A stretch of 37,117 nucleotides of DNA from contig JAUYHD010000033.1 of assembly GCA_030690215.1 (NCBI GenBank), positions 1 to 37,117 on the forward strand, given 5' to 3'. The DNA comes from a bacterium (GTDB taxonomy: Bacteria > Patescibacteriota > Minisyncoccia > 1-14-0-10-42-19). The translations under genes and the position numbers were made by a program. The notes under the pieces are model-generated. The model ran no database searches. It was not told the DNA's origin and saw nothing but the letters and a program-made list of their open reading frames with translations. Shown here in pieces: positions 7,011-29,835 of this stretch; within the stretch, counting starts at the first letter, position 1, and each line of letters starts with the position of its first letter.

Positions 7011-7730
7011 ATAATCACAGACCATATGTGCCCATACCGATATCTTTCTATTGAGCGTGGTACTTCTTTTTACCACGACACGCAACAATCCGAAATAGGC
7101 GGCGTTAGTGTTCCTACGATACGATTTTTTAACTCTATTATTCTTAAAATATACTCTAAATTCTTCCTCGGAGCAACCGACTGCTTTTGACCAATGTCTT
7201 CGCGATTTTCTAATATCTCCCGTCCTATGAATATACAACTCAAAAGAAAAATCGTCTCTCTTTAAGCCGATAATTTTTGTAAGCCACAACAAAAATAATC
7301 TTATCATCCGCGGGTCTGAATTGCTAAAAGCAACTTTTTGGCTGACATTATGCGTTTTTTGTTTTGCTCCTTCCGCCCAGTAGAGCATTACTCCCGCAAA
7401 AAAAAGTTTATTGTTCCGCAATTTCTTAAACTGCTTTTGTGCCTCTATCTCTGCAGCTTTTGTCATTTCAAGGCGCATTCTTCTGCGTTGCTCAGCACCA
7501 CGAAAAGCTGCGGCTAACTTTTTTTCCGTAAGTCGTTGTTTTTGACGCTTTGAAAGTCCGACTACTCTCAGCCATAAAGAAAGTGTCGATTTTGCAACCG
7601 GCACTTGTTCTAAAATCTCGCGATAAGAAAACCCCCTCCTTCTTAATTGTGTTGCTTTTTGTTGTTCTTGCTCTTTTCGAACCACGGTAGTATGTATATT
7701 TATTATACTAATATGGTTCGAGCATATCAA
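6996..7730 (-). CDS. HTH-containing hypothetical protein of a CPR family; possible LAGLIDADG-like endonuclease
   Basis: N-terminal HTH (LRRRGFSYREILEQVPVAKSTLSLWL); FFAGVMLYWAEGAK...VAFSNSDPRMIRLFLLWL stretch; ends inside tRNA-Gln. Confidence 0.55.
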   Translation of the reverse strand: MICSNHISIINIHTTVVRKEQEQQKATQLRRRGFSYREILEQVPVAKSTLSLWLRVVGLSKRQKQRLTEKKLAAAFRGAEQRRRMRLEMTKAAEIEAQKQFKKLRNNKLFFAGVMLYWAEGAKQKTHNVSQKVAFSNSDPRMIRLFLLWLTKIIGLKRDDFSFELYIHRTGDIRKSRRHWSKAVGCSEEEFRVYFKNNRVKKSYRRNTNAAYFGLLRVVVKRSTTLNRKISVWAHMVCDYCGVV

Positions 7731-28963: not shown

Positions 28964-29038
28964 TGGAGCCGGAGGCGAGATTCGAACTCGCGACTTGCTA
29001 TTTACGAAACAGCTACTCTACCACTGAGTTACTCCGGC
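28964..29038 (-). tRNA. tRNA-Thr(CGT), CCA encoded
   Basis: GCCGGAGTAACTCAGTGGTAGAGTAGCTGTTTCGTAAATAGCAAGTCGCGAGTTCGAATCTCGCCTCCGGCTCCA. Confidence 0.92.
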
Positions 29039-29164
29039 TTACTCTGCGTATTAACAAACGACCCTCTTTAGCTCTTTTGCTCTTAACTCTATATTGTCTT
29101 CCATTCCCTCTATTTAGTCCAGCATAGGTGCGAGTAGCGAGGATCAAACTTGCGTCTCTTGCTT

Positions 29165-29299
29165 GCCCCCACACCAATTTTTGCATTGTGCTTAAAATTG
29201 CGGCCAGCGAGAATCGAACTCGCATCTATTGCTTGGGAAGCAATCATTCTACCACTAAACTATGGCCGCACGATTTAATGCTAAAATTGGTGTGGGGGC
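29165..29299. mobile_element. Mini-element with 17 bp perfect inverted repeats enclosing tRNA-Gly
   Basis: GCCCCCACACCAATTTT (29165-29181) and AAAATTGGTGTGGGGGC (29283-29299); flanking direct repeat GCTTG at 29161-29165 and 29298-29302. Confidence 0.65.
29199..29269 (-). tRNA. tRNA-Gly(CCC)
   Basis: GCGGCCATAGTTTAGTGGTAGAATGATTGCTTCCCAAGCAATAGATGCGAGTTCGATTCTCGCTGGCCGCA; all stems pair; loop TTCCCAA. Confidence 0.93.
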
Positions 29300-29346
29300 T
29301 TGGGAAGCAATCATTTTACCACTAAACTAATCTCGCAATGCATCTA

Positions 29347-29736
29347 TTAAAGCCCAAAAAGGTTTTTGAGAAAAGAGGCAAATGATTGGAAGGCGGATGG
29401 CGGAGGCGGTTCTTTTTCATTGCCATCTTTTATAAATATGACAACGCTCTCCCCCTCTTTTTGGACATCAAAGCGTTCACGAATAACCCGCTCTCTGCCT
29501 GCATCGCTTTCCAGAAGCGCCATATTGCCCTCAATATCCGCTATGCGGGACGAAATTTCGTTTTCTTTGCTTTCTAATATTCTATACTCGCGCTCTACCT
29601 CGCGGTAGTTTTGATACGCATAAAATGCGTATTGCCCCGCATACCCTACCACCAAAAAAAGCAACACAATGATAGGCCACGAATACACAATCCGCGCCCC
29701 CCTAGATTCTTTTCGTGTTTGAAAAAATTGCCCCAT
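29347..29736 (-). CDS. Septum formation initiator / DivIC-FtsB-like protein
   Basis: Short N-terminal region, one TM, coiled coil, and ERVIRERFDVQKEGESVVIFI. Confidence 0.82.
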   Translation of the reverse strand: MGQFFQTRKESRGARIVYSWPIIVLLFLVVGYAGQYAFYAYQNYREVEREYRILESKENEISSRIADIEGNMALLESDAGRERVIRERFDVQKEGESVVIFIKDGNEKEPPPPSAFQSFASFLKNLFGL

Positions 29737-29835
29737 ACTTCTATTATAACAAGAGTATAGGAAATGCGCCCCGTTTGGCAAAATCAAGTGTTTTATCTAT
29801 CCGTTTTGCGGAACAATAGAGTATGGGGCATCTTT

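Follow-up and report, generated by a model that had tools for sequence, protein, structure and literature searches.

A tRNA-Gly(CCC) cassette bounded by inverted repeats inside a decayed tRNA-Gly(CCC) gene of a patescibacterium, and its probable origin as a miniature mobile element

The window, meaning the whole stretch of 37,117 nucleotides that was analysed, contains a tRNA-Gly(CCC) gene on the minus strand whose two halves are separated by a second, complete tRNA-Gly(CCC) gene. The 5' half of the outer gene (29299..29336) ends in CAAG, read as CTTG on the plus strand, and the 3' half (29130..29165, also minus) starts with a second copy of CAAG. A preliminary description had recognized both halves and placed the limits of the feature, correctly, at 29129-29336; sequence, repeat analysis and junction joining agree, since ARAGORN calls a tRNA-Gly(CCC) when the halves are joined across the insert. 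The insert, first estimated at about 130 bp, measures 133 bp (29166..29298), and has terminal inverted repeats (TIRs) and an architecture that are found also in other genomes. The left TIR, CCCCCACACCAATTTT (29166..29181), and the right TIR, AAAATTGGTGTGGGGG (29283..29298), are perfect over 16 bp, giving the element ends of the form CCCCC...GGGGG; the left arm reaches 29187 with one mismatch, and the right arm reaches back to 29277. Repeat analysis reports the pair as 29165-29187 / 29277-29299 (23 nt, 96% complementary), confirming the perfect 17-bp inverted repeats noticed earlier, and a scan of the 37-kb window for inverted repeats of at least 14 bp within 700 bp yielded this pair alone. In the predicted transcript fold the repeat forms a long helix (z -5.6).

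A copy of CTTG lies flush against the element on each side (left 29162..29165, right 29299..29302), a candidate 4-bp target-site duplication. The direct repeat had been read as 5 bp, GCTTG; its presence on both sides stands, but its length is better given as CTTG, because the longer reading includes an ambiguous G/C. The inner tRNA-Gly(CCC) is intact, as first described, and is found by ARAGORN at 29198..29270 on the minus strand with a score of 73.6 bits to Rfam model RF00005. The 133-bp element contains no ORF and has no coding capacity, and a search of the cassette revealed no promoter-like site. Directly upstream is a putative FtsB/DivIC-like ORF on the minus strand (29347..29787), which together with LepA serves as the anchor for synteny (tblastn). 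A tRNA-Thr(CGT) gene, called by ARAGORN, lies downstream on the same strand (28964..29038).

The search among relatives for an uninterrupted form of the outer tRNA, suggested at the outset, found one in G001, a genome of the same genus. There an uninterrupted tRNA-Gly(CCC), GCGAGAT...ATCTCGC, adjoins LepA and FtsB homologues just as in the window, and represents a syntenic empty site. The joined outer halves of the window show 87% identity to this intact orthologue, with mismatches in three stems (acceptor, anticodon and T), and ARAGORN still recognizes the joined form. The loss of stem pairs relative to the orthologue bears out the earlier view that the mismatches reflect decay. The outer tRNA-Gly is the resident gene, split and since decayed; with pairs lost in three stems, it is most likely a pseudogene now. 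The inner tRNA gives the single tRNA-Gly(CCC) pattern match in the genome that contains the window (G000, a 1.02-Mb assembly, 96% complete). As the sole tRNA-Gly(CCC) found in the assembly it is probably the working gene, although this codon may also be decoded by a different Gly tRNA.

Similar nests recur. A pattern search for a second 3' half, beginning CAAGC, closely behind a tRNA-Gly(CCC) matched 10 of the 388 genomes of the class, against 0 for the control pattern, and one additional nest, in G078, was spotted by eye. Five genomes in which the left side is preserved (G000, G622, G564, G661 and G639) share the border CCCAAG/CCCC...GGGG/CAAGC, where the slash marks the edge of the element; the search pattern presupposes the right border, so that this agreement cannot prove exclusive use of one site. 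Nests with the same insertion point differ in the sequence of the inverted repeat, as with CCCCGTAGTGAAAATTTGATATT in G622. The outer tRNA is still intact in a few nests, G622 among them, and the 5' half is lost or eroded in several others (G001, G526 and G076). Two of the ten genomes, G564 and G661, are doubly nested, with a further 3' half outside, so that in these an earlier cassette was itself replaced. Loci L212 and L210 likewise show second outer tRNA-Gly 3' halves past the first nest, which we read as tRNA-Gly(CCC) having been replaced serially; in L212 the outer repeat, TTGGTGTGAGGG, is similar to the window TIR.

The nest surveys are pattern searches against assemblies, mostly metagenome-assembled genomes (MAGs), a kind of data in which inverted repeats and near-identical tRNAs might be misassembled into an apparent nest, and the tRNA-Met nest at L144, described below, does start at a contig end. 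The nest in the window, however, lies in mid-contig, its outer tRNA has an orthologue in synteny, and independent nests occur in many genomes from different projects. We consider an assembly artefact extremely improbable.

The inverted repeat of the window belongs to a real family of miniature elements. An exact search with the 16-mer TIR returned at least 119 stretches. Among the matches listed, many are close inverted pairs, mainly from Patescibacteria and Omnitrophota and also from planctomycetes, and about 140 copies of the family were examined (141 element entries, of which 110 distinct elements entered the flank test). About 35 genomes among the matches listed contain close inverted pairs of the sequence CCCCCACACC, which in most of them is far commoner than a reversed control pattern; in G474 it has 28+29 copies, against 1+0 for the control. 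Elements span 25-605 bp, and their interiors are mostly unrelated between copies. The exact window TIR has one copy in its own genome, where two relatives carry CCCCCACACCTGTTTT instead.

Identical direct 4-bp flanks occur in 23 of the 110 distinct elements, where 4.3 are expected and none of 2000 shuffles reached as many. The flanking words mostly follow YNNR (TTTA, TTCA, CTTG, TACA, TATA). Many members have no perfect flank duplication, and some have inverted flank motifs (TTCA...CAAG); inverted similarity of the flanks is present in the family but weaker than the direct 4-bp matches. The asymmetric TTCA...CAAG flanks raised the question of IS200/IS605- or REP-like chemistry, which may apply but was not adopted because the direct matches are stronger. 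In the Omnitrophota elements L049, L060, L111 and L149 the flanks often read GAATTTA(...)TTCAATTC; the inverted repeat there seems to extend beyond CCCCC after a short mismatch, and may represent a preferred palindromic target. Between TIR pairs 0.4-4 kb apart no transposase was recognizable, the contents being a 605-bp unit with a GIY-YIG gene and unrelated genes that lie between separate elements. On contig C19 of G000, a protein that by eye resembles an IS30-type transposase (L170, 47-1042) is separated by about 1.3 kb from a hairpin element of 48 bp with CCCCCACACCTGTTTT.

Seven distinct elements of the family contain a tRNA gene: Gly in the window genome, Met in G462 (Giovannonibacteria), Val and Arg in G463, Pro and Leu in G479 (Staskawiczbacteria), and a second Pro at L093. 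The flanks of each were scored against all seven inner tRNAs, with shuffled flanks as control. In seven of seven the best match to the flanks has the same isotype as the inner tRNA; the match beats shuffled flanks in six cases (p up to 0.018), and is weak for Pro in G479 (p 0.05). Read from the sequences, the insertion points fall in the anticodon loop for Gly, Met and both Pro, in the D-loop for Val and Leu, and in the T-arm for Arg. The Met cassette of G462 lies inside an identical cassette, itself inside a third tRNA-Met-like half (L144 = L197, 1-241), and its middle and inner tRNA-Met differ only at the junction. The contig starts within this nest, and the double nesting is to be taken with caution. 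Separately, a related solo hairpin of 34 bp, CCCCGCAC...GTGCGGGG, with an extra CAAG, lies in the D-loop of a dead outer tRNA-Arg in G463 (L121, about 7220-7260).

Isotype matching could come from the insertion reaction itself rather than from selection, if the tRNA of an excised element paired with the matching gene and so guided the element home. The complete isotype agreement, the single insertion point of the preserved Gly(CCC) nests despite their different inverted repeats, and the self-nesting of the G462 element at the same position all fit such homing. Selection alone, however, yields an identical pattern, and the insertion points vary by tRNA, where pairing at one spot predicts otherwise. 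We regard homing as improbable.

Interruption within the anticodon, D and T arms, mostly in loops, also recalls the tRNA introns of archaea. The preliminary description had offered, as its less likely reading, that the 17-bp helix joins the halves as in a split or intron-containing tRNA, so that the element is removed from the RNA and both tRNAs are made. Beyond the insertion points, the stable folding of the long helix and the few nests that keep an intact outer tRNA agree with this. The stem mismatches of the window's outer tRNA and the lost or eroded 5' halves of other nests do not, and an Rfam search of 29100-29340 gave tRNA-like matches only, and neither a group I intron nor any further kind of spliceable RNA. 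ARAGORN in intron mode returned spurious calls or none on the nests. Elements without a tRNA should be equally spliceable, yet in the set examined with ARAGORN they never lie inside a tRNA gene, and outer halves with repeats but no inner tRNA, an arrangement considered at the outset, were not seen there. This result comes from the 141 element entries, whose flanks were joined with 0-8 bases trimmed: no tRNA-less element restored a tRNA, but the procedure excludes recent insertions only, because it also missed four tRNA-bearing cases with decayed outer tRNAs. A functional split or spliced tRNA is thus disfavoured, and very unlikely.

The sequences of the inner tRNAs bear on where the cassettes came from. 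In Gly nests that keep both outer halves, the inner tRNA is 74-81% identical to its own outer tRNA, and acceptor and T stems differ. Better matches lie elsewhere: the inner tRNA of the window shows 96% identity to the tRNA-Gly of G077, a genome from another family; the outer 3' half in G639 shows 97% identity to the G001 inner tRNA, against 64% to the inner tRNA of its own nest; and between G639 and G564, which belong to different families, the inner tRNAs agree at 93%. Short as the compared sequences are, the inner tRNAs of the Gly nests resemble tRNAs from other genomes more than their own outer tRNAs, and this speaks for replacement by a foreign gene and against local duplication. By local duplication we mean that a hairpin element within a tRNA gene captures the same tRNA, either by template switching or by repair that uses an intact sister, and so rescues the gene. 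It would produce isotype matching in one step, and the near-identity of middle and inner tRNA-Met in G462 is what it predicts. For the Gly nests, in which the inner gene is not a copy of the outer one, the hairpin-mediated duplication included in the preliminary description finds no support, and we judge local duplication unlikely as the general explanation.

The mobilizing protein must, if the element is mobile, lie outside the cassette and act in trans. In G000, at C18:75447-76051 (L169, L284), the 605-bp element has the TIR CCCCCACACCTGTTTT, which shares 14 of 16 bases with the window TIR, flanks TTTG/TTTG, and a small GIY-YIG gene inside. The same genome encodes 17 GIY-YIG genes per approximately 1 Mb (16 besides the C18 locus; L274-L290), mostly of 80-120 amino acids. 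Inverted repeats scoring at least 12 bound 10 of the 17, against 6 of 400 control positions, and the repeats at most of these loci start with CCC(C). Six other genomes show the same arrangement for 11 of 30 GIY-YIG genes at the same score; examples are a 318-bp unit in G564, ACCCCCACGCCAAAAGGCTTA / TAAGCCTTTTGGTGTGGGGGT, and a 276-bp unit in G639, CTTG(CCCCGTTAGAGAAA...TTTCTCTAACGGGG)TGAA. The small bounded genes of G000 are possibly very small autonomous mobile elements. By correlation, the leading candidate for the mobilizer at present is the group of bounded GIY-YIG elements, about 0.3 kb in size, a link that the data support weakly. We suggest, tentatively and at somewhat less than even probability, that Patescibacteria harbour mobile elements of about 0.3 kb, with diverse inverted repeats starting CCC(C) and a GIY-YIG gene, from which both MITEs and serially tRNA-replacing cassettes derive as non-autonomous forms. 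If true, the link names a new kind of very small mobile element, and the class with its tRNA-cassette derivatives gives single tRNA genes a way to turn over horizontally.

Taken together, the locus is explained, with high probability, by a miniature inverted-repeat mobile element that carried a tRNA-Gly(CCC) gene as cargo, disrupted the resident tRNA-Gly(CCC) gene, and supplied a substitute of the same isotype. The empty site in G001, the family copies with duplicated 4-bp flanks and the isotype-matched cases strongly support the MITE-like element with a replacement tRNA that was first proposed. The element would insert after CCCAAG in the anticodon arm of the resident gene, destroying it by the split and later decay now visible, while the intact tRNA of the cassette would take over its function. 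With no promoter-like site inside the cassette, the inner tRNA is presumably transcribed from the transcription unit of the resident gene and trimmed by ordinary tRNA processing. Isotype matching would then require no special guidance and could result from survivorship. Landing in a different single-copy tRNA gene would be lethal, and a cassette that landed elsewhere would be redundant or silent and would be lost from a streamlined genome; because of this, only replacements of the same isotype would persist. The outer halves would erode with time, and a newer cassette may hit the tRNA of an earlier cassette, leaving the nested dolls of G564, G661 and G462.

Vertical inheritance and essentiality are the usual assumptions about tRNA genes. 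In the present case a very small element seems to have exchanged the only detected tRNA of one kind in a streamlined bacterium for a foreign tRNA, with the scar as a record. Recurrence, the isotype rule and nesting make the movement of single tRNA genes between lineages directly testable, and tRNA cassettes could explain the interrupted tRNA remnants which annotation passes over.

The open-licence literature searched contains no account of tRNA-in-tRNA cassettes that we could find, but several known systems share features with them. The split and intron-containing tRNAs of archaea have interruptions in tRNA loops and a helix that joins the halves, as the window nest does, whereas in the window the outer tRNA decays and a whole tRNA lies inside. 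Like MITEs, the family is short, non-coding and probably non-autonomous, with TIRs, multiple dispersed copies and duplicated flanks; unlike MITEs, its interiors are usually unrelated between copies, some copies hold a host-type gene (the tRNA), no parent transposase was identified, and the flank duplication is often imperfect. Integrative elements with tRNA att sites also target a tRNA gene, but rebuild it from a fragment carried in attP, whereas the present element gives up its target and brings a complete gene instead. In the rRNA genes of CPR bacteria, GIY-YIG insertion sequences and short uncharacterized insertions (<200 bp) occur mostly at the tops or bases of stem-loops (PMC11270868). 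Compared by description, these resemble the present family in being small, GIY-YIG-encoding or ORF-less, and placed in structural RNA genes of the same radiation; that work concerns rRNA genes, and its main text contains neither the word tRNA nor the word inverted. In principle the process is known from tRNA-dependent lysogeny, where temperate phages integrate by means of a tyrosine integrase at an attP/attB core about 10 bp long (Guerrero-Bustamante and Hatfull 2024, PMC10865867). Both systems hit a host tRNA gene without rebuilding it, bring a tRNA of the same isotype, and concern a host in which no other such tRNA is found (for the window, no other tRNA-Gly(CCC) in a 96% complete assembly). 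The window element differs in being 133 bp long, with inverted repeats and a tRNA only, no integrase and no phage; it occurs in uncultured Patescibacteria, where the process is repeated as nests. By analogy, it appears to work like tRNA-dependent lysogeny at the scale of a MITE, rather than as a member of the phage system.
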